Origin: a virus
IMG/VR virus record: IMGVR_UViG_3300025141_016306
Location: 18,617 to 82,616 of that record
DNA: 64,000 bases
Strand: one strand, 5' to 3'
Position numbers and translations under genes: made by a program
Notes under the pieces: model-generated
Databases searched by the model: none
What the model saw: only the letters and a program-made list of their open reading frames with translations
Told to the model about the DNA's origin: nothing
In this document: in pieces, positions 29,070 through 52,893 of the stretch
How the letters are laid out: each line of letters opens with the position of its first letter
Numbering within the stretch: the stretch's first letter is position 1

Positions 29070-29429
29070 TTAATCTCCTTTTATAATTCTATAGCTATCC
29101 GAATCAAAATGTTGAGTAGAAAATTCGAATAACTCAGTGTCTTCTAGTGCGACCATTTGGTGGCGTAAACCGCGGTAAACATGGAAACTGTCGCCTTTTT
29201 CCAATATAAGCTCATTAGCTTCTGCAAGGTCATCATCGTCGGAATATTTAACTACAAGCTTTCCAGACTGAATGTAAAATACCTCGTCTTTGAGCTTGTG
29301 GTGATGCCACGAGCATCGTCGACCCTTCACAAAATATAGCAGCTTTCCGCAATATTCTTCACAGTTGACGATCCACTTTTCAAAGCCCCAGCCCTTGGGA
29401 ACTAACTTAGTTTCTAAAGAAGTCTTCAT
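29070..29429 (-). CDS. Cupin, mannose-6-phosphate isomerase type II-like, 119 aa
   Basis: A single-domain cupin beta barrel. The pattern WGFEKWIV, then SWHHHKLKDEVFYIQSGKL, then GDSFHVYRGLRHQM gives both cupin motifs with metal-binding histidines. The sequence resembles the C-terminal cupin of type II phosphomannose isomerase/GDP-mannose pyrophosphorylase proteins, but it is far too short for the full bifunctional enzyme. A role in isomerising or binding a sugar phosphate in the adjacent pathway is likely. It overlaps the nucleotidyltransferase/HAD gene by 23 bases. The substrate is unknown. Confidence 0.72.
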   Translation of the reverse strand: MKTSLETKLVPKGWGFEKWIVNCEEYCGKLLYFVKGRRCSWHHHKLKDEVFYIQSGKLVVKYSDDDDLAEANELILEKGDSFHVYRGLRHQMVALEDTELFEFSTQHFDSDSYRIIKGD

Positions 29430-30138
29430 GGTTTATTCCCTTGTCGTCGATGTAATGATCTCCGGCTGGTTTGCCTAGGATCAATCGGTGGTGTTTGATG
29501 CCCCATGAGTCGACCTGTTGCAAGGTCATATCAAAAAACATGCGAATGGCTTCTTTGGATTGATTGGCTGTGCGCCCCATTCCGCGAGCAGTAAATAGTA
29601 TTATTGTATGACCTTCATCATATAAGCGATTAACTTTTTTTATGCGCGCTTTATGTGGCGACGCGTTTTCATAATTTCCGTCTGTTAAAGAGCACAAAGT
29701 TCCATCAATATCAAAAACATAGGTTTCACCGGTGCCTTCGAACTTTGAGGGGCTTCTTTTTTGATTTTCTAAAATAGAGGTGGTGGAAAACCCCGTGATA
29801 TAGTTGAAGATTTGCACATCCGCGATGTCATTTCCAACCACTTCGTGGGGCTTATAATCGCCGCCTTTGACAATTAAGTCGGGCTGCAGTTCTTTAATCA
29901 AGGCGTATGGTGTATCTTCGGAAAACACAATCACGTCATCAACGTATTTGCAAGATCGAAGCATGTATTCTCTATCCTCTTGAGGGAAGAAGGGGCGGTT
30001 TTTTCCTTTTAGCTTGCGCACGCTGCTGTCACTATTAAGCCCTACGACGACTCGGCCGAGTGACTTGCAATGTCTTAAAAGTTCAACATGGCCTCGATGA
30101 AGAATGTCAAAGCACCCATTAGTAAAAATTGTTTTCAT
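29407..30138 (-). CDS. Nucleotidyltransferase fused to HAD phosphatase (HldE-C/RfaE2-like)
   Basis: The N-terminal domain (about 1-125) is a cytidylyltransferase-like fold opening TIFTNGCFDILHRGHVEL with the HxGH motif (H14-H17). This is the arrangement of the adenylyltransferase half of HldE, which activates heptose 1-phosphate. The C-terminal domain (about 138-243) is a HAD phosphatase with DIDGT (nucleophile D143), FTARG and the GKPAGDHYIDDK motif. The fusion could combine nucleotide transfer with phosphate removal in one chain. The ATG at 30138 gives a direct family start and overlaps the kinase stop by ATGA; a longer N terminus would sit inside the kinase gene. ADP-heptose is the likeliest product type, not proven. 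Confidence 0.78.
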   Translation of the reverse strand: MKTIFTNGCFDILHRGHVELLRHCKSLGRVVVGLNSDSSVRKLKGKNRPFFPQEDREYMLRSCKYVDDVIVFSEDTPYALIKELQPDLIVKGGDYKPHEVVGNDIADVQIFNYITGFSTTSILENQKRSPSKFEGTGETYVFDIDGTLCSLTDGNYENASPHKARIKKVNRLYDEGHTIILFTARGMGRTANQSKEAIRMFFDMTLQQVDSWGIKHHRLILGKPAGDHYIDDKGINHEDFFRN

Positions 30139-30866
30139 AGAGTGTTGACGCCTCTTCGCTGAACCACATTTGTGGCACAACTATTTGCAAAGGTGATTGC
30201 TTTCTCTATATCTGTGGTCTGAAGGTATTCTACTGCTAGGCCAGCGATGAAGGTGTCGCCCGCCCCTGAGACATCCTTAATTTCTACTGAATTAACGGGA
30301 TAAACTTTTCCCAAGTGTCTGCAACCTTTTTCTCCCAGTGTAACGATTAATTTCGAGCGGATGGTATCTGTTAAATAATCTTCGGATCTTTGGTATTCTC
30401 CATTGTTTATTTTAATATAGGTAACGGTATCGCACCAGGGCCCCAACTGTTTTTTAGTGTCCAAGAATACACACTCGTGATTCTCTCCGATCCAACGAAT
30501 ATCTTCTTGTGCTAAAAATCCTTTACAGTAATCAGAAACAATCACCATATCGTAATCTTTTAAGGGCAAATCCTTTACATCACATCTTTCTATACTATCA
30601 TCATTTTCGTCAATTCTTAAGAACATTTGATTAGTGATTTTATGAATATAGCGTGTTTTAATAATTTTTTCCCAGTTCTTATTGGTAACGATATCGCAGT
30701 CGCATCCGAGCGAAAGTATATTTTGCTGAACGTTCATGGCCATGCCCGGGTTGGTGACAGTATTAAAAGGTACAAAAACTGGTGCGGGAGCTTCGGGAGC
30801 AAGGCGTTCGCTCTTCCCGTAACAAAAGACATCTTTGCATGTTTCACCGATTACTAAAATTTTCAT
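30135..30866 (-). CDS. PfkB-type sugar kinase, HldE kinase-domain-like
   Basis: A 243-residue carbohydrate kinase of the ribokinase/PfkB family, likely phosphorylating a heptose 7-phosphate or related sugar phosphate at C1. It opens KILVIGETCKDVFCYGKSER, much like the kinase half of HldE (RfaE). It ends with the ATP-binding/catalytic motif DVSGAGDTF, catalytic D204, and the NSCATNVVQRRG segment. It is shorter than the usual roughly 310-residue kinase half, with a trimmed middle. In most bacteria this domain is fused to the adenylyltransferase; here the two are separate, overlapping genes. Confidence 0.78.
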   Translation of the reverse strand: MKILVIGETCKDVFCYGKSERLAPEAPAPVFVPFNTVTNPGMAMNVQQNILSLGCDCDIVTNKNWEKIIKTRYIHKITNQMFLRIDENDDSIERCDVKDLPLKDYDMVIVSDYCKGFLAQEDIRWIGENHECVFLDTKKQLGPWCDTVTYIKINNGEYQRSEDYLTDTIRSKLIVTLGEKGCRHLGKVYPVNSVEIKDVSGAGDTFIAGLAVEYLQTTDIEKAITFANSCATNVVQRRGVNTL

Positions 30867-30888: not shown

Positions 30889-31896
30889 TCATCGAGACAT
30901 AAAATGATTTTCGTTTTCTACCCTTTTTCTCCAATAGTTTAACAAATCAATCATAGTCTTTTCAAAAGAGATCTGCGGTTCCCATCCTGTATGATGTTTA
31001 AACTTAGACGTATCTGGTACCTGCAAGTCAGCATCTATCGGTCTCAGGCGAGACGGATCCACTTCTACTTTTATTTCCTCAATATTGGCTTGGGAAATAA
31101 GAAAATTTAACATATCTCGTACCGAGCACGTATATTGACCTCCGATATTATAATACTCACCCGCTGTGGGGTTAATTGTAACAAGCATATAATATGCTCT
31201 TACGGCGTCCCGGACATCTGCCCAAGTTCGCAAAGAATCTAAATTTCCTACCTTTATAACTGGGGGCAAAAGGCCCTTTTCTATCATGGCGATTTGTTTA
31301 GCAAAGCTGGACTCCGCAAAAACGTCGCCGCGGCGTGGACCCGTATGGGTGAACATTCGCGTGGTAATCGCTTTAATTCCGTAAGCCTCTCCATAATAAC
31401 GCCCTAGGAGATCCGTTCCTACTTTTGATATAGCATAAGGAGATGCAGGGTGAAATGTGCAATCCTCATCGATGGGAAGCTTATCTTGAGGAACCCTTCC
31501 AAAGACTTCAGAGGAGGCACACACGTGCGCCACTGGGTCGATACCTAAAGTTCTGATAGATTCCAATAGATTGGCTGTGCCGATAATATTAGTTTGTAGG
31601 GTTTCAAGCGGGGCTGAGAAGCTGGTTTTGGGATAGCTTTGCGCGGCTAAATGAAAAATATAATCGGGATTAGCGTCTTTGAGTGCGTGCAGGACCGAGG
31701 CGTAATCGTTTAGATCTCCGTAGGTTAGGTGTATGCGGTCATGATTGTTTATGCGATCAAAAAGATGTTTGATGTTTGAAAAATCATCATTCCATCTACA
31801 AAAACCATAAACGTGCCAATCAGTGTTTTCCAGAAGAAAGTCGGACAAATGTGAACCAACCATCCCCGTAATTCCTGTTATAAAGGCGCTAGTCAT
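30889..31896 (-). CDS. gmd: GDP-mannose 4,6-dehydratase
   Basis: Extended short-chain dehydrogenase converting GDP-D-mannose to GDP-4-keto-6-deoxy-D-mannose. The NAD(P)-binding motif GITGMVGSHL is at the N terminus. The active site has SSE (about 128-130) and Y154-x3-K158 in SPYAISKVGTDLLG. The GMD-specific segments THTGPRRGDVFAESSFAKQ and LRTWADVRDAVRAYY are present. The 335-residue length suits the family. It feeds the downstream-type enzymes of the same island (3-dehydrase, GDP-fucose-synthase-like proteins). The start shares one base with the stop of the dioxygenase gene (TAATG). Confidence 0.88.
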   Translation of the reverse strand: MTSAFITGITGMVGSHLSDFLLENTDWHVYGFCRWNDDFSNIKHLFDRINNHDRIHLTYGDLNDYASVLHALKDANPDYIFHLAAQSYPKTSFSAPLETLQTNIIGTANLLESIRTLGIDPVAHVCASSEVFGRVPQDKLPIDEDCTFHPASPYAISKVGTDLLGRYYGEAYGIKAITTRMFTHTGPRRGDVFAESSFAKQIAMIEKGLLPPVIKVGNLDSLRTWADVRDAVRAYYMLVTINPTAGEYYNIGGQYTCSVRDMLNFLISQANIEEIKVEVDPSRLRPIDADLQVPDTSKFKHHTGWEPQISFEKTMIDLLNYWRKRVENENHFMSR

Positions 31897-32684
31897 TAAG
31901 CAAAATCCTTCGAATCATAACGGCCTAACAACTCTCTTTTGGCCGTCCAGCCGGGCCAAAAGGGCTCACCTTCTCTAATATAGACACTATAAATTGTCCT
32001 TCGCCAGCGCGTCGGGTGAGTGTTTCTATCGGCTTTATGCAACAAAAGGCCGTTAACCACAAGTACGTCTCCGGCCTTATACTCAAGCTGAAGGGTTGGA
32101 AGATCGTCCGACAGGGGGTTTCCGTCGGAATCCGTATAATCGCTCAGTTTGTAAGCGTCTCCGATCGGGGCAATCTGATATCGGTTTCCATCTGCGTCGG
32201 CTGAAAAGTTTGGGGAGGGGGCAAAGGCCAGCATTCCCAACCTATGACTACCAGGAATAACAATAAGAGATCCATTTGTGGAATCGGCGTCGTCGACCAC
32301 CAAGGCCAAATTCAAATAATGGTTCCCGTTGGGGGCCATAGGAGCGAAATTATCTTGATGCCATATCGATCCCAACTCCTTCTCATTGTTAGGTTTGCAA
32401 AAAAATGTGGTGGTTGCGAGTGGAATAGCGCGGCCACCGCAAATGGCGTCCCCTATATCACACATCTTTTTACCTCTATGCGCCTGCTTGATGCTGGCAT
32501 GATGATGCATATCCAGTCGTACAGTAATATTATCGCGGGCATAATGGTCTAAATCTTGGCGGATAATGTCTACTTCATCTTTATTCCACACTCCCGGAAT
32601 TAGTAAGTACCCGTTTTCATTATAAGAGTTTAGCTGTTCTTCAGTAAGAGTGAAGCTGTCCATGTGAGTCTTGAGTTCGGTCAT
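31896..32684 (-). CDS. Phytanoyl-CoA dioxygenase (PhyH) family Fe(II)/2-oxoglutarate oxygenase
   Basis: A 262-residue non-haem iron oxygenase. It opens LTEEQLNSYNENGYLLIPG, the usual PhyH N terminus. The iron ligands are in WHQDNFAPM (HxD) and a distal His in VNGLLLHKADRN, with an Arg after it (WRR) for 2-oxoglutarate. SLIVIPGSHRLG is another PhyH hallmark. The substrate cannot be told from sequence; within this island a sugar or sugar-linked acyl group is plausible. It overlaps the neighbouring epimerase by ATGA and GMD by one base. Confidence 0.82.
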   Translation of the reverse strand: MTELKTHMDSFTLTEEQLNSYNENGYLLIPGVWNKDEVDIIRQDLDHYARDNITVRLDMHHHASIKQAHRGKKMCDIGDAICGGRAIPLATTTFFCKPNNEKELGSIWHQDNFAPMAPNGNHYLNLALVVDDADSTNGSLIVIPGSHRLGMLAFAPSPNFSADADGNRYQIAPIGDAYKLSDYTDSDGNPLSDDLPTLQLEYKAGDVLVVNGLLLHKADRNTHPTRWRRTIYSVYIREGEPFWPGWTAKRELLGRYDSKDFA

Positions 32685-33631
32685 TTAATATTCTCCTTAT
32701 ACCAAGATAATGTATTTTTAATACCACTATCTAAAGAAATTTGAGGGTGCCATTTCAACACCTCTTTTGCCTTCGTGATGTCCACTGCTAATTTAGTTTT
32801 AATAGTTGGTTTGGTTTCGTCATATTTTATTTGCAAATTCTTCCCCGATGCTGTAACAATCGATTGTACAAGATTTGAAATAGATATCGACTCCCCTAGG
32901 CCAACATTTACTAGTTCATACGGGGTTTCTTGTTTCTCAAGAGCGGCTTCTACACACGTAACCAAATCATTAACGTGGAGCAAATCGCGCTCTTCTTCTC
33001 CTGTGCCCCATACAATTACCTCTTTCTCCGCTTCCATCACTTTTACCACTGTGGCGCCAAAAACGTGACCCTTTTTTAAATCATACTTATCGTGAGGGCC
33101 ATAAATGTTAGACTGTCGAAGCACTGTGTGCTTGGTTCTTCCAAAACCTGCGAAAAACTCACACATCTTTTCCAAATAAACTTTTGTGTTTCCAGCACCA
33201 AAATACTTCGGAAGTATGCCAGTAGACTCGTCGAAGTCGGCTTCTCTTACTGGGGAATCGCTCGATTGATACATGATTGTACAACTGGGCATTATAAAAT
33301 GTTCTATCCCTTGCTCGAAAGCCTCTCGCAAAAGTAGAGAGGTCATAACTGCATTATCAGTTACGTGAATATAAGGTTTAGATACAATGTCGGCGGCGCC
33401 TGTGGTAGTTGCTGCGTAATGAAGGATGACATCCACTCCGTCGATGACTCGGGCGACCTCGCTCGCATTTCGCAAATCGGTGACTATCCACTCCACATTT
33501 TCAGGACAGTCACCAGGGTGACAGTTGGTGCGAATTTGATCAACCGCTCTTATGTTATAGGTGGACGCAAAATGCCCCACCAAGTTTCGCCCAATAAAAC
33601 CATTGGCGCCGCATATTAACATCTTTTTCAT
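32681..33631 (-). CDS. NAD-dependent epimerase/reductase, GDP-L-fucose synthase-like, catalytic Tyr not seen
   Basis: A 316-residue extended SDR with the Rossmann motif ICGANGFIGRNL. Similarity to GDP-4-keto-6-deoxymannose epimerase-reductase shows in NIYGPHDKYDL, VIVWGTGEEERDLLHVNDL, LVNVGLGESISI and the C-terminal WHPQISLDSGIKNTLSWY. The usual Y-x3-K motif is not visible: the aligned segment reads KYFGAGNTKVYLEKMCE, where the Lys is present but Gly/Ala fills the place four residues before it. It may therefore be a binding protein, a changed-mechanism enzyme or a 2-epimerase-like activity. Coupled to both neighbours by ATGA overlaps. Confidence 0.7.
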   Translation of the reverse strand: MKKMLICGANGFIGRNLVGHFASTYNIRAVDQIRTNCHPGDCPENVEWIVTDLRNASEVARVIDGVDVILHYAATTTGAADIVSKPYIHVTDNAVMTSLLLREAFEQGIEHFIMPSCTIMYQSSDSPVREADFDESTGILPKYFGAGNTKVYLEKMCEFFAGFGRTKHTVLRQSNIYGPHDKYDLKKGHVFGATVVKVMEAEKEVIVWGTGEEERDLLHVNDLVTCVEAALEKQETPYELVNVGLGESISISNLVQSIVTASGKNLQIKYDETKPTIKTKLAVDITKAKEVLKWHPQISLDSGIKNTLSWYKENIK

Positions 33632-35105: not shown

Positions 35106-36083
35106 TTAGATTGCTCCTTTTAGGGCCTTGAAAACGTCCTTAGAGGTGTTGGCCACCTCTTGGTTCTCAAGATACCACTCAATGGTATTTTTAATGCCCT
35201 CTTCTATCGATATTTGGGGTTTAAAGCCCAGTTTATCGGCGCGGGACATGTCGAATACTCGTCTCGCGTCGCCTGTGGGCTTGCTTGTGTCCCACTCGAT
35301 GGGTATATTTGCGGCATGGGCGATGGTTTCCGCGATTCTTTTGATAGAAATTTCGTCCCCAGAACCCAAATTAAGGGGCTCGGTGATTTTATTTTCTACT
35401 ACGAACAGCATTCCGCGAGCGACATCTTTGGCATGGATGAAATCGCGGATGGCAGATCCGTCGCCCCAGACCTCAAGCTTGCCATTGGTGAAAGCTTTGC
35501 GTATCAGAGAGGGAATAACCATGGCGCTGTCGGGATCAAATGTATCATGTGGGCCATAAACGTTGGCTGGTCTTACAATACTGCATTTTCCTTGTCCATA
35601 TTGTCGTTCGTAGGCCTGGCATTGAAGTTCTCCCATGCGTTTGGCCCATCCGCCAAACCAATCGTTTTTTGATGGTTGTGTTTTCCACACATCGTCTTCA
35701 CGAAGGACTTCTGCGGGTTCATATACTCCTACGGTGCTTGTATAGAGGTACCACTCGACATTCTGCTTCATCGCAGCTTCAAGCATATTGGTGTTGAATT
35801 GCAGCATTGGGCCCATAATGCTCGCTGGTTCTTCGATACAGACGCGAGGAGAGCATTTGATGCCCACCAAATTGAAAACAAAGTCAATATTTTCGCACAC
35901 TTGTAGGCACGAATCGTAGCTGCGCAGATCGACCTCGTGAAAAAGAATTTTATCCGACATGCCCGTGGGCTTTTTAATATCTGCCACGTGAACGATGGCG
36001 TTTCTCTCAAGAAGCAACGCTACAAGCTGACGTCCAATCATCCCTGCTCCGCCTGTTACTAACACATTTTTATTTTCAAACAT
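35106..36083 (-). CDS. GDP-L-fucose synthase/ColC-like epimerase-reductase, catalytic Tyr not seen
   Basis: A 325-residue extended SDR closely patterned on GDP-4-keto-6-deoxymannose 3,5-epimerase-reductase: VLVTGGAGMIGRQL, TSTVGVYEPAE, RPANVYGPHDTFDPDSAMV, EVWGDGSAIRDFIHAKDV and the C-terminal WDTSKPTGDARRVFDMSR. In the colitose pathway the ColC homologue acts after the ColD 3-dehydrase, and here a ColD-like gene overlaps it directly by 8 bases. In place of Y-x3-K the segment reads NDWFGGWAKRMGEL: the Lys is kept, the Tyr is not. The activity may therefore differ from the model enzyme. Confidence 0.75.
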   Translation of the reverse strand: MFENKNVLVTGGAGMIGRQLVALLLERNAIVHVADIKKPTGMSDKILFHEVDLRSYDSCLQVCENIDFVFNLVGIKCSPRVCIEEPASIMGPMLQFNTNMLEAAMKQNVEWYLYTSTVGVYEPAEVLREDDVWKTQPSKNDWFGGWAKRMGELQCQAYERQYGQGKCSIVRPANVYGPHDTFDPDSAMVIPSLIRKAFTNGKLEVWGDGSAIRDFIHAKDVARGMLFVVENKITEPLNLGSGDEISIKRIAETIAHAANIPIEWDTSKPTGDARRVFDMSRADKLGFKPQISIEEGIKNTIEWYLENQEVANTSKDVFKALKGAI

Positions 36084-37239
36084 CGTTTAAACCTCTGCAA
36101 AGCGCAACTATTTGCTCTTTGCTTAATTCTGTGTGATTACCAATATATAGACTATTCTCGTGTATATAGTCTGCGTTGGCTAGGTCGTCGGCCTGTCTAA
36201 AAGAATACTTTTTCAAATAAGGCTGGCGCGCCTGGTTTCCTCCGCCGGCGGTACCTAATCTATATTCTACACCTTCTGTCTCCAAAAAGTTGCATATGTT
36301 AGAAAGAGCCATTGCGTCTGGTTTTGCTAAAATCAAAGGGAGGGCGAAATTGCTATTCCCCTTTGTGTCGAAAGCCGTAAAATACTTTTCACTATCCAGA
36401 TTGTCGAGCCAAACAGCCAGATTTTCTTTTCTACAATCGATATTAAAATCAAGCCTGTGCATTTGCTGGAGTCCCAATACTGCATTTAACTCCGTGCTTC
36501 TCATATTATAGCCGGGAACGCCGAAAGTAAACATAGGGTTGAGGCCTTCTTCATAATAATGGTCATGGGTTTCTTGCGACACTTCACGCGTCATACCATG
36601 AGAGCGGAAAAGCTTGGCGAGTTGGTATATCTCGTAATTATCTGTGCATACCATTCCACCTTCGATGGTGGTTATGTGGTGCCCAAAATAAAAGGAGAAG
36701 CAAGACATGTCTCCCCAGCTACCCACGCGGTCTTCCTTGAAGATGGCGCCATGGGACTCACAGCAATCTTCTATAAGCAATAAATTATGAGTTAGCGCAA
36801 GCTGAATTATTTTTTCATTTAACCCATTAAAACCCAAACAATGAACCAGCACGATAGCTTTGGTTTCTTCGGTAATGGCATTTTTAATATTTTCATACGC
36901 AATGGACATATTGCTTTTGTCTACGTCCACGAAAACCGGTGTCAACCCTGTATTGATGACGGACGCTACATCGGATACCCACCCGATGGGGGGTACAATA
37001 ACTTCCCCCTGTTGTCCTTTTAGTTCGCGAGTGATGGCCATTGTTATATAATTTGCGGAGGCACCAGAATTAACAAAGACGCTATGCTTAACGCCCAACC
37101 ATTCAGACCATTTTTTTTCAAATTCTCGAACTCTTTCTCCTTGTGTAAGACGAACATTCGGAATCTTTAAAAAATCAATTAAGGCATTTTTATCTTCGGC
37201 TGTAATGTTATCATTTATTAAAGGCCACTTAAATGTCAT
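36076..37239 (-). CDS. ColD/RfbH-type PLP-dependent sugar 3-dehydrase (DegT family)
   Basis: A 387-residue DegT/DnrJ/EryC1/StrS-fold protein. The PLP-phosphate site (NSGASANYITMAI) and the ring-binding Asp (LLIEDCCES, D158) are present. The Lys that forms the internal aldimine in aminotransferases is replaced: the segment reads FYFGHHITTIEGG, with H188 in its place. That replacement marks the 3-dehydrases ColD and RfbH/E1, which remove the C3 hydroxyl instead of transaminating. The ATG at 37239 gives almost exactly the ColD length (388). With GMD in the same island, GDP-4-keto-6-deoxymannose is the likely substrate and GDP-4-keto-3,6-dideoxymannose the product. Confidence 0.84.
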   Translation of the reverse strand: MTFKWPLINDNITAEDKNALIDFLKIPNVRLTQGERVREFEKKWSEWLGVKHSVFVNSGASANYITMAITRELKGQQGEVIVPPIGWVSDVASVINTGLTPVFVDVDKSNMSIAYENIKNAITEETKAIVLVHCLGFNGLNEKIIQLALTHNLLLIEDCCESHGAIFKEDRVGSWGDMSCFSFYFGHHITTIEGGMVCTDNYEIYQLAKLFRSHGMTREVSQETHDHYYEEGLNPMFTFGVPGYNMRSTELNAVLGLQQMHRLDFNIDCRKENLAVWLDNLDSEKYFTAFDTKGNSNFALPLILAKPDAMALSNICNFLETEGVEYRLGTAGGGNQARQPYLKKYSFRQADDLANADYIHENSLYIGNHTELSKEQIVALCRGLNDV

Positions 37240-37240
37240 A

Positions 37241-37750
37241 TCATTTATCTCTTTTCTGTAGGGTTGGGTTGTCTGTTGGCCAGTCAATGTTTAAATTCTC
37301 ATCATTCCATTTTAAAGTAAACTGGTCTTCAACATCCGGGTATGATCCTTCGTACAACCACTTATAATAAAAAACAGCATCATCGCTCATGACATAAAAA
37401 CCGTTTCCATATCCCGGTGGAACCAACACCATTTTTCTGTTTTTTGATGTCAGCATTGTCCAATCCCAGTGATTGTATGTGGATGAATTTTTTCTATTGT
37501 CAACAACTACAAAATATATTTCTCCATGGAGGCATGTCACTAACTTTGTAGACTTAAAGTCGCCGTGAATTCCTCGAAGAACATGCTTTCTAGAAGTCGA
37601 AACTTTATCATGGTTAAAATTTATTTCTTTGAAAACTTTTCCCTTCTCCCACAGAGTCCACAAGTCTCCCCTATAGTCAGAATAACAATCTGGTGACAGA
37701 ATTTTAACCTCAGAAAATTTCATGCTTTGTATAACATTGCTGGAATTCAT
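37241..37750 (-). CDS. RmlC-like sugar 3,5-epimerase, copy 2
   Basis: A 169-residue cupin-fold protein of the dTDP-4-dehydrorhamnose 3,5-epimerase family. Visible landmarks: DYRGDLWTLWEKG, the His motif LRGIHGDFKSTKLV, VPPGYGNGFYVMSDDAVF and the closing WPTDNPTLQKRDK. It is a clear paralogue of the gene at 42539-43051, sharing the order of motifs nearly throughout. Two copies suggest epimerases for two different sugars. The start shares one base with the radical SAM stop. The natural substrate may be a GDP sugar here, since no RmlA or RmlB is seen in the window. Confidence 0.8.
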   Translation of the reverse strand: MNSSNVIQSMKFSEVKILSPDCYSDYRGDLWTLWEKGKVFKEINFNHDKVSTSRKHVLRGIHGDFKSTKLVTCLHGEIYFVVVDNRKNSSTYNHWDWTMLTSKNRKMVLVPPGYGNGFYVMSDDAVFYYKWLYEGSYPDVEDQFTLKWNDENLNIDWPTDNPTLQKRDK

Positions 37751-39093
37751 TAGCCGTTTTCCTCGTCACTATAACCTACCGGGCCGTATCCATGACTCTT
37801 AACAAGATCTTGAAGCTTTAAATAGTTGTTGATGATTACTTCACTTTTTTCTCCCTTTCCCCAGGGAGTATTTTCATCATATTCAAAGGTCAGTGTGGGT
37901 AGCTCTTCTTCGTATCTACTATACATGTGCATCGTGTTTTCCCATGATGTTTTAACCTCTTTGATTCCGAATTTTTTTGGATTATCATAAACAGGAGTGC
38001 CTGGGCGGACCGTAAAAAGTGATAAATAAACAGCATCCGGACCGGTCTCTTGTATAAAATCCCAAGTTTTATCAACAATGTCAGTAGGTTCTCCAGGTAG
38101 GCCCAGAATCATATAAATTCGTGTTTCAATTCCAGCTTTTTTAAGAAGTTTTATACTTTTCCTTGCTCTCTCAACTTTGATTTTTTTATTAATAATGTCC
38201 AGCGATTGCTGAGAAACACTCTCAACACCCATGCACATTATAATACAGCCGGCGTCTTTAGACAGGCTGGCTATCTCTGGCGTGACCGAATCAACACGAC
38301 ACTGTGCCTTCCAGACCACCCCGGTACTTCCTATCGCCTCTAAGTGAGGTATGGCTTTGCTTTTTTTGAGAGGCATACAAATTTCATCTACCATACTGAT
38401 TCCACACACACCATACTCTCGCTTAAGATACTCAATCTCCTCTTTAATGAGTTCCGGGGATCGAAATCTTATACCCGGACTGAATTGTTTTGATGCCGGC
38501 ATTGCGCAAAATGAACAGCTGTACGGACACCCACGACTAAACATTGTAGTTGTTCCTACGATCTTGTCGTATCCGGGAGTATTCTTTAATGTTAATAATC
38601 CTGGTCTAGCTATTGTTAATTTTGGCAAATATTTTCGAAGAGGATACGGATGATCGTTAATGTTCGTGCTTTTGCTAATATACCTTTTTTTTAACTTTGA
38701 ATCGCGAATATCTTCAATAACCTGGATGATTGATTGTTCTCCATCACCTAACACAATTGCATCAAAAACCTCTAGTGTCTTCTCTTGAAAAGCTGTTGCA
38801 TGCGGACCCCCTGCAATATGAAGTGCTGTCGGGTACCTCTGTTTCAATTGCTCAACAATTGACTCTTGTTCATAGAGGTCTAGGGTATAAAGAGAATGAA
38901 GATAAACATCACATTCTTGAATATGATAAATTGCAAATCTTTTTTTTATGCCCCTTAAATCTATTAAGGATACATCAACCTCAGAACCGAAATGAGATTC
39001 AAGAATTGTGAGTATTTGAAAATGTGTGTGTGGATCTCCCCGGAAGGGATCATGTAAATACTCACTACTTGGAAAAATAAATCCAATTTTCAT
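37750..39093 (-). CDS. B12-binding-domain radical SAM enzyme, 447 aa
   Basis: The N-terminal about 130 residues have a cobalamin-binding-like Rossmann fold ending in the typical HIAGGPHAT and VLGDGEQS. The radical SAM core follows with the [4Fe-4S] motif CPYSCSFC (C189, C193, C196) and a later GMGVES-like segment (CMGVESVSQQ). This architecture is used for methylations and rearrangements on unreactive carbons, including C-methylation of sugars and antibiotics. Its location among sugar-nucleotide genes points to sugar modification. The specific reaction cannot be told. Whether cobalamin is really bound is uncertain, because no DxHxxG is clear. Confidence 0.83.
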   Translation of the reverse strand: MKIGFIFPSSEYLHDPFRGDPHTHFQILTILESHFGSEVDVSLIDLRGIKKRFAIYHIQECDVYLHSLYTLDLYEQESIVEQLKQRYPTALHIAGGPHATAFQEKTLEVFDAIVLGDGEQSIIQVIEDIRDSKLKKRYISKSTNINDHPYPLRKYLPKLTIARPGLLTLKNTPGYDKIVGTTTMFSRGCPYSCSFCAMPASKQFSPGIRFRSPELIKEEIEYLKREYGVCGISMVDEICMPLKKSKAIPHLEAIGSTGVVWKAQCRVDSVTPEIASLSKDAGCIIMCMGVESVSQQSLDIINKKIKVERARKSIKLLKKAGIETRIYMILGLPGEPTDIVDKTWDFIQETGPDAVYLSLFTVRPGTPVYDNPKKFGIKEVKTSWENTMHMYSRYEEELPTLTFEYDENTPWGKGEKSEVIINNYLKLQDLVKSHGYGPVGYSDEENG

Positions 39094-39106: not shown

Positions 39107-40018
39107 TTATTGTGTCGACGAGCAGCATTCCCTTACTTTCTTTACTATCTCCGACGCAGAAGGTGGCAAGTTATCTACTCTCGGATGAAAGCCGGCTGTT
39201 CGATGTTTCAGTGCCATTGTGTGAATCGGTTTATTAGATTTCAGCATGATGCGATGTGCTATGCTGCTAGCAGCACCTTCCTCATAGTCATCATCTAATA
39301 CAATTCCTCCAAATTTAGAAGATTTTAATGCTGTCAAAGACTCTTCACTCAAGTTAAAGGGCTTGATCCACAAAATATGATCCACATTTACCCTATAACC
39401 CTCTGACTCTAAAGATCTGCAGGCTTCTTCTGCAGCAAACCTAGTAATAGATATCGGAAACAAAGTGATGTCTGATTCTTCATGAAACGTATTCGGTAAT
39501 TCTTCAGTGTTGTCATAGCTCTTTCGGTGTTCTGAGATGTAATAAACACAGTCGTCTTTCATGAAACTGTTATAAACACTTCTGTATTCTTCTGGTGTCA
39601 TTGGAGCTGCTATCTTGACTCCCGGCATTCTTTGATAAATTGAGTGGTGGGAAGAGCCGGCCACCGGGCCGATACCGCCTTCCATGGCGATACTTCTAAC
39701 CATGAGGGGACATGGGCGTTGCCAAATCTCTTGTGATTTCATGGCGTAATTGGCGATAATGGGCGAATTATACCATTGGAATCCTTGATATCTAACGACA
39801 TAAATTGGTCGTTCGCCAGCTAGCGCTAAACCGGTGACAATACCTCCGCCTGCAACATCTGCCATTGAAAGTTCAACCATGCCATCTTCTTCATAGAGTT
39901 CAGGAAGGGTTCCACCAACCCAGCCGACGGCTGTGAGACATTGGCCAAAGCAACGGCTGCCGTTCGCAAGGTGGGTGCGAGTTATTTCTTTTATTGTGTC
40001 TCTAACTGTTTTTGCCAT
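39107..40018 (-). CDS. Thiamine-diphosphate dehydrogenase E1 beta subunit (transketolase-type)
   Basis: A 303-residue protein with the transketolase pyrimidine-binding domain (about 1-170: VELSMADVAGGGIVTGLALAG, IANYAMKSQ, GIGPVAGSSHHSIYQRMPG) and C-terminal domain (about 185-300). In E1 enzymes the beta subunit supplies the catalytic Glu and pairs with an alpha subunit holding the thiamine pyrophosphate. Its start lies inside the last 28 bases of the alpha gene. In this sugar island the pair may add or transfer a two-carbon unit rather than feed the citric acid cycle: no E2 or E3 gene is visible. Confidence 0.82.
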   Translation of the reverse strand: MAKTVRDTIKEITRTHLANGSRCFGQCLTAVGWVGGTLPELYEEDGMVELSMADVAGGGIVTGLALAGERPIYVVRYQGFQWYNSPIIANYAMKSQEIWQRPCPLMVRSIAMEGGIGPVAGSSHHSIYQRMPGVKIAAPMTPEEYRSVYNSFMKDDCVYYISEHRKSYDNTEELPNTFHEESDITLFPISITRFAAEEACRSLESEGYRVNVDHILWIKPFNLSEESLTALKSSKFGGIVLDDDYEEGAASSIAHRIMLKSNKPIHTMALKHRTAGFHPRVDNLPPSASEIVKKVRECCSSTQ

Positions 40019-40830
40019 ATCTCTTCTACTTTTTGCTTCGTTTGTTTATCAATCGCGCTGGCCTCTTCGCCTAAATCATCCATTTCTACCTGATATCTGT
40101 CAAAAATGTTCTCGTCGTCGATTCCCGCACCCGAATGCCAAAATTTTCTATGCGTGTTCACATTCAACAGAACAGGGCCATCAGAGAATGGATTTTTCAG
40201 GAAAGATGCCAACTCCAGCGGATCATCGCTGGTGTCAAAACCTTTCATTTTAAACCCCTTCGCCACGTCGGGCAATTCCCAATTGCGCCGCATCTTCTTT
40301 TCGGTTAAAATGGAAAGATTGTTATCCTCCACCACAAAGATCATTGGAAGATTTTTGGTGGAAGCCCAGCCTAGGGCGCCGAACACGTAGTCTTCTTCGG
40401 CAGATGCGTCTCCCAAATGCACAATAGTGGGGTGTTGGGTACTGTAACAATGGCCAACGGCGATTGGGGCTTGAGAGCCCATGAGGCCGTCATGACCAAA
40501 TATATTTTTTTCTTTGGAGTGAATCGAAGCGGATCCGCCCATCCCGTAAGCGCAGCCTGTAGAGCGCCCAAGCAACTCGTCTACAAGCGCTTCAGGCGGT
40601 GCGTCATAAGATAAATATGTCGAGTGGCCGCGGTGTTGAATAAAGATATTGGGGTTAATTTTTTTCTGGTGTAGCACCTGGGCTATAGTCGCAGAAATAT
40701 ACTCTTGACCCGCAGAGAGGTAGATAGGAAACTTAAACATTTTACTCTGAATTCCGTTAAATACATATTGTTCAAAATTTCGACACAATGACGCCCTTTT
40801 GAAAACGTTTATTCTAAAATCCCTGCTCAT
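39991..40830 (-). CDS. Thiamine-diphosphate dehydrogenase E1 alpha subunit
   Basis: A 279-residue protein with the thiamine pyrophosphate motif: GD at about 140-141 (HLGDASAEEDYVFGAL) followed by NN at about 170-171 (VVEDNNLSI), the classical GD-x(25-30)-N(N) metal and cofactor site. Upstream, QHRGHSTYLS and the YGMGGSASIHSK loop match E1 alpha. It is shorter than the usual roughly 360 residues. It overlaps its beta partner (28 bases) and the preceding HAD gene (ATGA). The substrate is unknown; acetyl or glycolaldehyde transfer to a keto sugar is a hypothesis from context. Confidence 0.85.
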   Translation of the reverse strand: MSRDFRINVFKRASLCRNFEQYVFNGIQSKMFKFPIYLSAGQEYISATIAQVLHQKKINPNIFIQHRGHSTYLSYDAPPEALVDELLGRSTGCAYGMGGSASIHSKEKNIFGHDGLMGSQAPIAVGHCYSTQHPTIVHLGDASAEEDYVFGALGWASTKNLPMIFVVEDNNLSILTEKKMRRNWELPDVAKGFKMKGFDTSDDPLELASFLKNPFSDGPVLLNVNTHRKFWHSGAGIDDENIFDRYQVEMDDLGEEASAIDKQTKQKVEEIWQKQLETQ

Positions 40831-41339
40831 AGAATGCTCTCCCAGCAGTCAAAACTATTGCGATCTATTGCTTTGACGCCCCCTATCGAGGCTGCTTCGG
40901 TCAAATCTTTTTCATTGTCATCGAAAAAAACGTATTCTCCGCAAACATCCGCAATTTCTTTTATATTATACAGCTTTAGGTCTGTTTTGTAAAGTAAAAT
41001 CTTCTTATAATTGAAAAATTCGTATATTCCAAACCTCTTTAACAAGAGGACCGACGGTTGCTTTTCATACTCGACTTCGTATATGCCACCGCGGGAAAGA
41101 AACCCAATGTTTTTACCCAAAGCCTGTAACTTTTCTAGAACAGGACGGATGCCGGCGTGTAGCGAACATGTGGAGAAAACATCATCAATAATAGTATCCG
41201 ACCATTCTCCCTCAATAGTATAAGGTAAGAGCATTTGTTTTGCCCATATGGGCTCCCCGGTTTTGGAATTTGTATCCCAGACGGTGCGATCTAAATCAAA
41301 AATAAAAGTATCATACCGCGCTGCTAGGTCCGCTATCAT
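40827..41339 (-). CDS. HAD-superfamily phosphatase (MDP-1/FkbH-like), 170 aa
   Basis: A small HAD hydrolase with the nucleophile motif FIFDLDRTVWD, a second motif near FLSRGG and a terminal acidic motif VFFDDNEKDL, as in magnesium-dependent phosphatase-1 and HAD-IIIC proteins. DLDRTVWD is closer to MDP-1/FkbH than to GmhB. The start ATG at 41339 follows a GGAG about 7 bases away; a possible TTG 5 codons earlier is less likely. It could remove a phosphate from a sugar intermediate. It overlaps the cupin gene by 29 bases and the E1 alpha gene by ATGA. Confidence 0.75.
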   Translation of the reverse strand: MIADLAARYDTFIFDLDRTVWDTNSKTGEPIWAKQMLLPYTIEGEWSDTIIDDVFSTCSLHAGIRPVLEKLQALGKNIGFLSRGGIYEVEYEKQPSVLLLKRFGIYEFFNYKKILLYKTDLKLYNIKEIADVCGEYVFFDDNEKDLTEAASIGGVKAIDRNSFDCWESIL

Positions 41340-42006
41340 TCTTTTTCTCCACAATCATGGTGACGGTGTCGGTGACCACGTCCTTAAACACAGTCATCAA
41401 CTTCTTAAGAACTGCTCCGGACACAATGTCGCCCGGGCCAGCGACGGTTGTTGCGTAATCTGTGATGAGACCGCCCCTTAGAAAAGTAACATGTGTATCG
41501 TCGGGCAAATCGGCGAAATAAGAGGAGCTATCAACGCTCGTTAAATGAATATTGCAATTTGCAAAATCATAAGTCACGGTCTGTGATGGGGGCGGATCTT
41601 CAAGCCATAAGCAGTCGTCTTTTTTGGGCGCTTCGAAAGTGTTATCCTCATAAGGCTTTCCCTCGCGACCGTAAAAATCTTTGAAACGTACCAAATCATG
41701 TTTATCGACGGGTGTTTCGATCTCCATTACCCATGCGCCTGGTTGGCTCACCGCCTGAGTGGAGTGAAAAAGGCCTTTTCTAATCATCATTTTCCCGCAA
41801 GTTTCGACAAAAAACTTATTACTGAGAAATGATATCTGCACATCCCCGTCAAGCACCATCAGTCCAGTGGTTTTGTTGGGGTGACAGTGCATTGATGTCG
41901 CTTGCTTGTGGGCAATATATAAAAACCAAAGACCTACGTGTTCATTTTCGTAGGCCAGGTATTCATAGCCCCAGGGCTTCTTAACTATGGTGTCTTCATA
42001 GCTCAT
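41311..42006 (-). CDS. Cupin-domain protein, phosphomannose isomerase-like, 231 aa
   Basis: The N-terminal about 110 residues form a cupin: KKPWGYEYLAYENEHVGLW, SMHCHPNKTTGLMVLDGDV and the second His motif in KGLFHSTQAV. The KPWGYE opening is typical of type II phosphomannose isomerase-like cupins. The C-terminal half (about 130-231) has no recognised motif. The protein is likely a sugar-phosphate isomerase or binding protein. Overlaps the PfpI-family gene by ATGA. A second, shorter cupin of the same type lies at 29070-29429. Confidence 0.7.
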   Translation of the reverse strand: MSYEDTIVKKPWGYEYLAYENEHVGLWFLYIAHKQATSMHCHPNKTTGLMVLDGDVQISFLSNKFFVETCGKMMIRKGLFHSTQAVSQPGAWVMEIETPVDKHDLVRFKDFYGREGKPYEDNTFEAPKKDDCLWLEDPPPSQTVTYDFANCNIHLTSVDSSSYFADLPDDTHVTFLRGGLITDYATTVAGPGDIVSGAVLKKLMTVFKDVVTDTVTMIVEKKNDSGPSSAV

Positions 42007-42542
42007 TTCCCTCTTTTCTCTAAAACTTCATATCCAGTTCTCATCCACTCGCCCATAAAGTCATAATGAGGGGAGGAAACTATATTGCTATCAACAACAA
42101 CCGGGCCTCTATGATAAGTTGCCCCAGCGTTGTTGATGTCAGCTTCAATGGCATAATAACCCGACACTGTTTTGCCTCTAAGAACATCTGCCGTAATCAA
42201 TAATTGGGCGCCATTGCATAGAGAGAAAATAGTTTTGTCTAACGCATTCCACTCGCGTACAAATTCAACTACCCCCTCCTCTAATCTTAATTTTTCCAAA
42301 GCCTTAACGCCTCCTGGGACTATCAATAGATCATATTGCAGGTACTTTTCTCTAGTCTCGGAATCATTAAAATCAGACGTCAATACGTCACCAACCATGT
42401 GACATCCTAAAATTCCATAGAATCTTCCCAACTGATTGGCTACAATTGTAACCTCAAAGTTGTTTTCCTTTAAGCTGTGATAAGGGTATATTAACTCGTG
42501 GTCTTGAAAACCGGCATGAGTAAGGATAAGTGCTTTTTTCAT
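42003..42542 (-). CDS. DJ-1/PfpI family protein, 179 aa
   Basis: It opens KKALILTHAGFQDHELIYPY (E16 is the conserved acid) and carries the nucleophile elbow in FSLCNGAQLL (C109), preceded by DLLIVPGGV. These are the defining features of the DJ-1/PfpI superfamily, whose members act as glyoxalase/deglycase, amidase or chaperone. A deglycase/glyoxalase-type activity would suit a locus that handles reactive keto sugars, but this is only a guess. Length is typical. Coupled to both neighbours by ATGA overlaps. Confidence 0.8.
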   Translation of the reverse strand: MKKALILTHAGFQDHELIYPYHSLKENNFEVTIVANQLGRFYGILGCHMVGDVLTSDFNDSETREKYLQYDLLIVPGGVKALEKLRLEEGVVEFVREWNALDKTIFSLCNGAQLLITADVLRGKTVSGYYAIEADINNAGATYHRGPVVVDSNIVSSPHYDFMGEWMRTGYEVLEKRGK

Positions 42543-43051
42543 ATTTTAATTCCTCTTTTGTCTCTGACCTGTAAGATTGGATTCTCAATAGGCCAATTAA
42601 TTCTAAGTGTGGGGTTGTCCCACGATAACGTAAATTGTTCTGACACGTCCGGGTAATCGCCCGGATATGCCCATTTATAGTGAAAGACGGATTGTTCGCT
42701 TAAAACCACAAAGCCGTTGCCCACGCCGGGAGGTATTAAAACCTGTTTGCGAGTGCGATCATCTAATACAATCCAATCCCATTGTCGAAACGTGTCCGAG
42801 TTGGGCCGGTTGTCGGCAACGACGAAATAAAGCTCTCCATATAAGCAGGTTACCAATTTCCAGGACTTAAAATCCCCATGAATCCCCCGGAGAACGTTTT
42901 TCCGCGATGTCGATACTTTATCATGATTGAACTCTAAATTAAAATTGTTTGTGTCTTTGTGCCATAAAGTCCAAAGGTCGCCGCGGTAATCAGTATATAT
43001 ATCCGGGGTGTACACCTGTACATCTTTTATTTTTTCCAACTGATTTTCCAA
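42539..43051 (-). CDS. RmlC-like sugar 3,5-epimerase, copy 1
   Basis: A 170-residue RmlC-fold protein: TDYRGDLWTLWHK, the catalytic His segment LRGIHGDFKSWKLV, IPPGVGNGFVVLSEQSVFHY and WPIENPILQVRDKRG at the C terminus. Compared with copy 2 (37241-37750) the same motifs occur in the same order, with many substitutions between them. This suggests an old duplication or two separate acquisitions. Predicted to epimerise C3 and/or C5 of a 4-keto sugar nucleotide. It overlaps the preceding 138-residue gene by 25 bases. Confidence 0.82.
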   Translation of the reverse strand: MENQLEKIKDVQVYTPDIYTDYRGDLWTLWHKDTNNFNLEFNHDKVSTSRKNVLRGIHGDFKSWKLVTCLYGELYFVVADNRPNSDTFRQWDWIVLDDRTRKQVLIPPGVGNGFVVLSEQSVFHYKWAYPGDYPDVSEQFTLSWDNPTLRINWPIENPILQVRDKRGIKI

Positions 43052-51872: not shown

Positions 51873-52208
51873 CTAATTATTTTCTTTTTTGTTCTTGGCG
51901 GGTGAAGATGCGCCGTACTTTGGCACCGGTGCCTTTGGTGGTGGTGACTTTACGGGTGGGGCCTTCGGTGGTGACTTTTTAACCGGAAGGGAAAAAATCC
52001 AAGTCCCTGTTCTCTGTTCTTTGAGCGCAGCATTGTGGGCGCTCCCGGCCTGTATAAGATCTAATTTCTTATACTTAGAGTGATTTTGAGCAAGCCATTT
52101 CAAAATATCACCGGTCGTTATTCGCCCCGGGGCGGAATTCTTTGTTGCCGCCCCAATTGTAGCGGTTACAATTAACTTGCCATCGCTTTCCTTTATTTTA
52201 CAATCCAT
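51873..52208 (-). CDS. Small protein with Pro/Lys-rich tail, 111 aa
   Basis: About 70 residues of compact alpha/beta sequence (MDCKIKESDGKLIVTATIG ... ILKWLAQNHSKYKKL) are followed by a low-complexity tail of repeated KxPPxAPP-like units. The start at 52208 has an AAGGAAG site and overlaps the preceding protease stop by 11 bases; a reading nine codons longer lacks a site. The tail may mediate binding or be disordered. No family recognised. Confidence 0.6.
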   Translation of the reverse strand: MDCKIKESDGKLIVTATIGAATKNSAPGRITTGDILKWLAQNHSKYKKLDLIQAGSAHNAALKEQRTGTWIFSLPVKKSPPKAPPVKSPPPKAPVPKYGASSPAKNKKENN

Positions 52209-52893
52209 CTTTTTCTTCCTTCTTATTATCAACAAGAGTTTTAATTTTGTGGTATAATGCGGGACTCAAATCCTTGAGTCTCCCCCTATCTTTTAAAAAA
52301 TAATTTTCAAAACCATTTGCCCAGTATTCCTTAAGCGCGGTGATGGCATAGGGAGAGTAAAACAAATCAGAGGTTAAAGATCTCAATGTTTCATACCCGA
52401 CATCCCTATAAAGATACATATCAAACTGTTCATCATAGCTGGGATTTAAAAAATACACCATATTGGCTCTTTTGTCAAGAGGTAATATATGATGTAAAAA
52501 TTTCCTTTTGCCTAAAAACTCGTTTTCAAGTGTTTGGTCTCCGTAGATCTCTTCGCGATTTCTTTCTTCTAATGAGTGAGCGATCTCATGTATAATATCG
52601 TCCAGCATGTCTTCTTCATTATCTTGTGAGTTGGAGACATATATGGTGCCGTCCTTATATATAGCATTAAAATTCTTTCCGTTACGTGAGAAATCTTCGA
52701 ATGTTCCGATATAAATATTATCAAAATTAGCGGTTAAAGAAGCCGGAACTTTTGATTCGATATCGTGCAACACTTTATCTAAAGAAACCCCAGCAGAGAT
52801 AGGGTTGATTACATATACCGGCTTGTCGAACAGTTTATATTCTTTAAACTCACTTTTATTTTGGGCGCTATTTTCCAGAATGTATTTCTTCAT
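52198..52893 (-). CDS. HExxH zinc metalloprotease, lethal-factor-like fold, 231 aa
   Basis: The zinc motif is in DDIIHEIAHSLEERN (about residues 100-110). About 90 residues on, ALKEYWANGFENYFL has the Glu/Asn/aromatic spacing of the third zinc ligand seen in anthrax lethal-factor-like (ATLF/PPEP) gluzincins. There is no signal peptide, so it would work in the host cytoplasm or be packaged. Targets are unknown; host-protein cleavage or capsid maturation are possibilities. It overlaps the upstream 94-residue gene by 26 bases. Confidence 0.72.
   Translation of the reverse strand: MKKYILENSAQNKSEFKEYKLFDKPVYVINPISAGVSLDKVLHDIESKVPASLTANFDNIYIGTFEDFSRNGKNFNAIYKDGTIYVSNSQDNEEDMLDDIIHEIAHSLEERNREEIYGDQTLENEFLGKRKFLHHILPLDKRANMVYFLNPSYDEQFDMYLYRDVGYETLRSLTSDLFYSPYAITALKEYWANGFENYFLKDRGRLKDLSPALYHKIKTLVDNKKEEKDGL

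Follow-up and report, generated by a model that had tools for sequence, protein, structure and literature searches.

A phage-encoded pair of E1-like subunits as a candidate enzyme for two-carbon branching of a dideoxyheptose

What would a phage do with the two E1 subunits of a 2-oxoacid dehydrogenase, encoded amid a cluster of sugar genes? The question is raised by a window of 64,000 nucleotides, positions 18617–82616 of an 82,616-base virus record (IMGVR_UViG_3300025141_016306), from a phage that also encodes a T4-type baseplate wedge and a PhoH protein. A preliminary description of this DNA recognized E1-alpha and E1-beta as an overlapping pair, and the coordinates, Pfam matches and folds bear this out (Table 1). 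Either side of the baseplate gene lie two giant ORFs (3156 aa at 1299–10769 and 3232 aa at 14547–24245 of the window) that are likely to encode tail or adhesin proteins; a sub-threshold Pfam match at 52198–52893 to PF07737 (metalloprotease-like, 21.1 of 27.4 bits) is probably meaningless.

Table 1. Features of the sugar cluster, in coordinates of the window
Feature	Position	Strand	Remarks
HldE C-terminal-like heptose-1-phosphate nucleotidyltransferase fused to EcbF/BcbF-like phosphatase	29407..30180	(-)	
HldE N-terminal-like heptose kinase	30135..30866	(-)	
NDP-heptose 4,6-dehydratase-like SDR	30889..31896	(-)	Best PDB match 7us5
PhyH-like Fe(II)/2-oxoglutarate dioxygenase	31896..32684	(-)	
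Second extended SDR	32681..33631	(-)	
Short-chain dehydrogenase, 193 aa	33628..34209	(-)	Candidate ketoreductase for a putative acetyl branch
Fcl-like SDR	35106..36083	(-)	Candidate C4-reductase or side-chain reductase
ColD-type PMP-dependent 3-dehydratase	36076..37239	(-)	ATG 37239, alternative TTG 37287; His replaces the PLP Lys (FYFGHHITTIEGG)
RmlC-like epimerase	37241..37750	(-)	Best PDB matches are GDP-4-keto-heptose 3,5-epimerases
B12-binding radical SAM protein	37750..39093	(-)	Between E1-beta and RmlC; in some relatives only
E1-beta-like subunit	39107..40018	(-)	303 aa; Pfam Transket_pyr 4.3e-10 and Transketolase_C 6e-6
Overlap of alpha and beta ORFs, 28 bases	39991..40018	(-)	Beta ATG within the alpha 3' end
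E1-alpha-like subunit	39991..40830	(-)	279 aa; Pfam E1_dh 1.5e-18
HAD (MDP-1-like) phosphatase	40827..41354	(-)	
Cupin-like protein	41311..42006	(-)	KPWG motif (by eye; no family match)
DJ-1/PfpI family protein	42003..42542	(-)	
Second RmlC-like epimerase	42539..43051	(-)	

Two scans of viral contigs recovered 38 loci, or 35 once three near-identical ones had been dropped, so that, the window's phage aside, 34 or more environmental viral contigs contain the cassette. Given this recurrence in 35 non-redundant viral contigs and the dN/dS of 0.04–0.17 in unsaturated pairs, we do not attribute the association of the E1 pair with its neighbors to chance. The most constant partners are the cupin and DJ-1 genes, which occur together with the E1 pair in 35/35 of the non-redundant viral loci. 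One genome scan found the clade at five loci in bacteria, one in a Pelagibacteraceae cell, one in each of two SAR116 genomes, and the other two on separate contigs of a betaproteobacterial MAG, and a class-wide sample of 385 genomes contributed one further strong match and one weaker split match beyond the genome used as its center. GenBank phages contained no close relative of the E1 pair, and the E1 matches found there are bacterial-type PDH or acetoin genes with 20–29% identity. The preliminary description had called the proposed sugar unusual in any virus; this agrees with the lack of a close relative in GenBank phages, but not with the approximately 35 distinct viral contigs that carry the cassette. 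In pelagimyophages, hypervariable islands are described as holding genes for glycans, rfaE among them, which perhaps alter the host surface (PMC7029224). The betaproteobacterial MAG TMED100 encodes a second, divergent E1-alpha/beta pair approximately 10 kb from the first, with a canonical beta Glu (piece positions 293–1492).

Structure prediction, which the preliminary description had proposed as a check, gave confident models of both subunits (AlphaFold with 35-sequence alignments; pLDDT 89 for E1-alpha and 84 for E1-beta), and both have a 2-oxoacid dehydrogenase E1 fold, the top PDB folds being human PDH E1-alpha and PDH E1-beta, respectively. By its Pfam matches and PDB folds, the pair is like the alpha2beta2 PDH E1 in having an E1 fold and separate alpha and beta subunits. 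E1-beta also has weak matches to the C-terminal halves of transketolases, and a split transketolase is among its structural matches, as might be expected of a split transketolase-like ketol transferase; we consider such an enzyme very improbable given that the alpha subunit is an E1_dh protein and that the best structural matches of both subunits are 2-oxoacid dehydrogenase E1 proteins.

The fold and the best sequence matches would also suit an auxiliary PDH E1 that works with host E2/E3 and raises acetyl-CoA during infection. However, the scores of the pair against the PDH equivalogs TIGR03182 (102.7 bits, cut-off 393.85) and PRK09212 (46.3 bits, cut-off 321) fall far under the cut-offs. In an IQ-TREE phylogeny of E1-beta, 39 clade sequences stand apart (support 100/100) from 16 reference sequences, which represent PDH, branched-chain, acetoin dehydrogenase, and other pairs, and the E1-alpha tree concurs in recovering a separate clade (SH-aLRT 100). 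The preliminary description had named a phylogeny inside PDH as evidence against its reading; we instead find a very divergent clade of viruses and a few marine bacteria outside all of the reference E1-beta sequences, on a branch of approximately 4 to 5 changes per site whose attachment point is therefore unsure. The same description had reported a pair without E2/E3 genes, and searches of the 82.6 kb record and of 33 related virus records for 2-oxoacid_dh (PF00198) and lipoyl (PF00364) domains came up empty, whereas most control genomes were positive; many of these virus records are fragments, so this absence is not proof. The pair therefore shares with PDH E1 the fold, the layout of the ThDP site, and the subunit split and differs from it in its separate clade, its shorter chains, the undetected E2/E3, and the replacement of three canonical motif positions. 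As the pair is moreover always found within sugar clusters, we regard the auxiliary PDH as very improbable. The E1 pair is best explained, judging from sequence and predicted structure, as a putative two-subunit ThDP carboligase dedicated to nucleotide-sugar branching rather than as a dehydrogenase component.

The position of the ThDP-activating Glu, a residue that is highly conserved across ThDP enzymes with glyoxylate carboligase as one cited exception (PMC6270654), is occupied in the window's E1-beta by Asp54 (codon 39857–39859). Asp is found at this position in 39/39 aligned clade members and Glu in 18/18 references. In E1-alpha, the ThDP/Mg motif is GDA...DN rather than the canonical GDG...NN, and across the clade Ala or Ser replaces the last Gly of GDG and Asp the leading Asn of NN. 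Both Mg ligands of E1-alpha (Asp141 and Asn170) are invariant (39/39), as are its active-site residues His69, Arg228, and His232. Replacement of the activating Glu could be taken as the mark of a catalytically dead or merely structural E1 descendant, but the replacement is always Asp, the Mg ligands and the His and Arg residues are kept throughout, and dN/dS is low; we give this explanation the least credence of those considered. We take the pair to be an active enzyme, kept under selection, whose ThDP activation is probably altered; because Asp replaces the activating Glu throughout the clade, the chemistry of the pair could differ from that of known E1 enzymes. An alphaproteobacterial E1-beta that is more distant than the clade also has Asp (piece positions 7826–8735); its gene is broken by a TAG codon in frame and by a change of frame, which may reflect decay or sequencing error.

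The ColD-like dehydrase of the preliminary description is of the true ColD type: in the PDB it matches E. coli ColD most closely (1.8e-56; 194.9 bits vs. 153.1 bits for the CDP-sugar dehydratase E1/RfbH), with the catalytic His aligned. A ColD-type gene, counted as such when its product was 35% or more identical to that of the window, is present in 32/35 non-redundant viral loci and in 30 of the 31 that have enough downstream sequence, and it directly follows the E1-beta gene in 16 of the 35. The His motif (HH) is conserved in 38/39 loci scored, and none has Lys. Four of the five bacterial clade loci include a ColD-like gene, with synteny that is only partial. Beyond the clade, plasmids of Azospirillum thermophilum and A. 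ramasamyi encode E1-alpha, E1-beta, and a His-type 3-dehydratase consecutively, and Solidesulfovibrio encodes E1-alpha, E1-beta, an Fcl-like SDR, and a His-type 3-dehydratase together. Like the phage, these bacteria combine an E1 pair, a His-type 3-dehydratase, and an SDR, in their case within glycan-type clusters; their pairs differ in having the canonical Glu and GDG, in having no DJ-1 or cupin partners that we could see, and in E1 subunits that are only 24–27% (Azospirillum) and 26–28% (Solidesulfovibrio) identical to those of the window over the aligned part. Given that the combination recurs in different surroundings, a functional link between E1 and the 3-dehydratase is supported; the partner of the E1 pair does vary, because that of Azospirillum oryzae is accompanied by Lys-type aminotransferases instead. 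Streptomyces plasmid E1 pairs were considered for comparison and set aside, as they sit in other contexts, in part unannotated, and one of them is E2-linked. In the Synechococcus phage ACG-2014f (piece positions 5980–7173), a protein annotated as hypothetical is a ColD-type 3-dehydratase (FYFGHHMTTIEGG) whose gene neighbors encode an SDR and a GDP-mannose 4,6-dehydratase, a gene set that suggests synthesis of a colitose-like sugar by deposited cyanophage genomes.

The preliminary description proposed GDP-4-keto-3,6-dideoxymannose as the acceptor, and a hexose derived from GDP-mannose was likewise our first candidate; we demoted it given that the 4,6-dehydratase and the epimerase are heptose-type. 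The 4,6-dehydratase, initially taken for a GDP-mannose dehydratase, scores 370.8 bits against 7us5, a GDP-D-glycero-D-manno-heptose 4,6-dehydratase, vs. 160.7 bits against the GDP-mannose dehydratase 1db3, and the epimerase encoded at 37241 scores 172.5 bits against 8db5 vs. 86.7 bits against RmlC. Genes for the heptose kinase and nucleotidyltransferase, which also point to heptose, adjoin the 4,6-dehydratase gene. Based on the heptose type of the dehydratase, epimerase, and kinase/nucleotidyltransferase, the acceptor is more likely to be an NDP-3,6-dideoxy-4-keto-heptose than a hexose. Among the viral loci, a heptose-type dehydratase is found in 21 of the 27 with enough flank and an RmlC-like gene in 29/35. 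With two RmlC-like paralogs, the window's cluster may form two epimeric products. In the Synechococcus phage Bellamy (piece positions 8001–9020), a dehydratase encoded next to a kinase and a nucleotidyl transferase shares 54% identity with the heptose-type enzyme of the window, and some cyanophages may therefore also make heptose sugars.

It is possible, if on balance unlikely, that an enzyme of the same class acts on another acceptor, whether a hexose, another keto sugar, or a sugar already on the glycan. Branching after glycosyl transfer has been proposed for antibiotic pathways, including those of avilamycin and paulomycin (PMC4425429), the several SDRs and two RmlC paralogs of the cluster might yield two or more keto sugars, and some relatives have no detectable heptose-type dehydratase. 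Against other acceptors stand the heptose type of the window's dehydratase and epimerase and the constancy of the ColD-type gene, which is often adjacent and is the most constant neighbor after DJ-1 and the cupin.

A close model for the acceptor is the pathway of Campylobacter jejuni HS:5, in which GDP-heptose is converted by a 4,6-dehydratase and a ColD-family C3-dehydratase to GDP-3,6-dideoxy-4-keto-heptose, which is then epimerized and reduced (PMC10440746). The phage shares with it a heptose-type 4,6-dehydratase, a ColD-family C3-dehydratase, an RmlC-family epimerase, and a reductase; based on these common steps, the window has the genes needed for NDP-3,6-dideoxy-4-keto-heptose plus a ThDP enzyme, whereas no ThDP enzyme is described for the Campylobacter pathway and its product is unbranched. 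The likeness has a second consequence. The ColD, RmlC-like, and Fcl-like enzymes could yield a plain 3,6-dideoxyheptose, Campylobacter using exactly a dehydratase, C3-dehydratase, C5-epimerase, and C4-reductase for this purpose (PMC10440746), with the E1 pair serving separately, for example to supply a C2-derived or acyl building block, and the linkage reflecting inheritance as operon mates. The unfailing company of DJ-1 and the cupin would fit this alternative, and the recurrence of E1 with a His-type 3-dehydratase in distant lineages with differing surroundings argues against it; we consider it distinctly unlikely.

Precedent for branching by E1 pairs comes from antibiotic pathways. E1-like pairs that add a two-carbon unit from pyruvate to keto sugars have been proposed, and partly shown, for avilamycin, paulomycin, everninomicin, aldgamycin, and kibdelomycin (PMC4425429; PMC10338323; PMC4753412; PMC12247030). 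Knockout of pau11 abolishes paulomycins, and knockouts and feeding support the branching steps of aldgamycin and paulomycin (PMC12247030; PMC4425429), while KbDH-alpha/beta couples pyruvate to cyclic ketones in vitro (PMC12247030). The precedent invoked by the preliminary description is thereby upheld for AviB1/B2, Pau11/12, and KbDH (PMC4425429; PMC12247030). Members of this alphaKADH2 group (AviB1/AviB2, Pau11/Pau12, EvdU5/EvdS3, and KbDH-alpha/beta) resemble the phage pair, by gene content and published descriptions, in being split E1 pairs without E2/E3 within deoxy-sugar clusters whose other members supply the keto sugar; the phage pair differs in being virus-borne, in its NDP-3,6-dideoxyheptose context, and possibly in its beta Asp. 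YerE of Yersinia pseudotuberculosis, which acts in yersiniose A synthesis by C2 branching of CDP-3,6-dideoxy-4-keto-glucose, has in common with the phage pair the proposed chemistry, the transfer of the pyruvate two-carbon unit to C4 of a nucleotide-bound 3,6-dideoxy-4-keto sugar. Its architecture is different, in that YerE consists of one chain, a flavoprotein from the decarboxylase superfamily that acts on a CDP-hexose, in contrast to the two E1-type subunits of the phage. The Coxiella O-antigen was also considered as a parallel and rejected, as the paper makes no mention of E1.

Given the non-PDH clade, the kept active-site residues, the ColD-type neighbor, and the distant loci that combine E1 with a 3-dehydratase, two-carbon branching is the best explanation for the phage pair. 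We posit, with a probability of roughly 0.55, that the pair adds a two-carbon branch to NDP-3,6-dideoxy-4-keto-heptose and that the product is a nine-carbon, 4-C-branched sugar. The heptose kinase, nucleotidyltransferase, and phosphatase would make NDP-heptose, which the 4,6-dehydratase would convert to NDP-6-deoxy-4-keto-heptose; the ColD-type enzyme would then take off the C3 hydroxyl to give NDP-3,6-dideoxy-4-keto-heptose, and an RmlC-like enzyme might epimerize C5. E1-alpha/beta with ThDP would decarboxylate pyruvate, or a close 2-oxoacid, and deliver the two-carbon carbanion to the C4 ketone, forming a 4-C-acetyl tertiary alcohol whose acetyl group an SDR could reduce to hydroxyethyl. Glycosyltransferases of the cluster would finally place the nine-carbon sugar on a surface glycan or the virion. 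For this pathway we infer the activity, donor, acceptor, position, order of steps, nucleotide, stereochemistry, and biological role. The B12-binding radical SAM protein could possibly act in C-methylation or dehydration of a sugar.

Several observations sit less easily with branching of a dideoxyheptose. In addition to the Campylobacter-like route to an unbranched product, DJ-1 and the cupin are more constant than the dehydratase and are left unexplained by the model, the nucleotidyltransferase is of the ADP-heptose (adenylyl) type with no obvious fit to a GDP-heptose dehydratase, the heptose-type dehydratase is present in many but not all viral loci, and the activating Glu is Asp clade-wide. 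As to the branched dideoxy sugar put forward in the preliminary description, a non-PDH pair tightly conserved with a ColD-type enzyme stands, the hexose acceptor is less likely than a heptose, and the catalysis is deduced.

More tentatively, we hypothesize that viruses encode a subfamily of ThDP carboligases, characterized by Asp in place of the activating Glu, whose product is a nucleotide sugar of nine carbons: 3,6-dideoxyheptose that bears a two-carbon branch on C4. The literature that we searched yielded no report of such a C4 two-carbon-branched 3,6-dideoxyheptose from cells or viruses. Phage genes named "GDP-mannose 4,6-dehydratase" may be heptose enzymes. If the hypothesis is true, phages would encode the means to build a branched higher-carbon sugar de novo, going beyond the sugars derived from GDP-mannose that are commonly noted for phage sugar clusters, and the cassette would provide both a gene set that is self-contained and can be expressed to produce a new monosaccharide and a natural test of the role of Asp at the position of the ThDP-activating Glu. 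It would also be a marker of glycan remodeling by marine and other environmental viruses.
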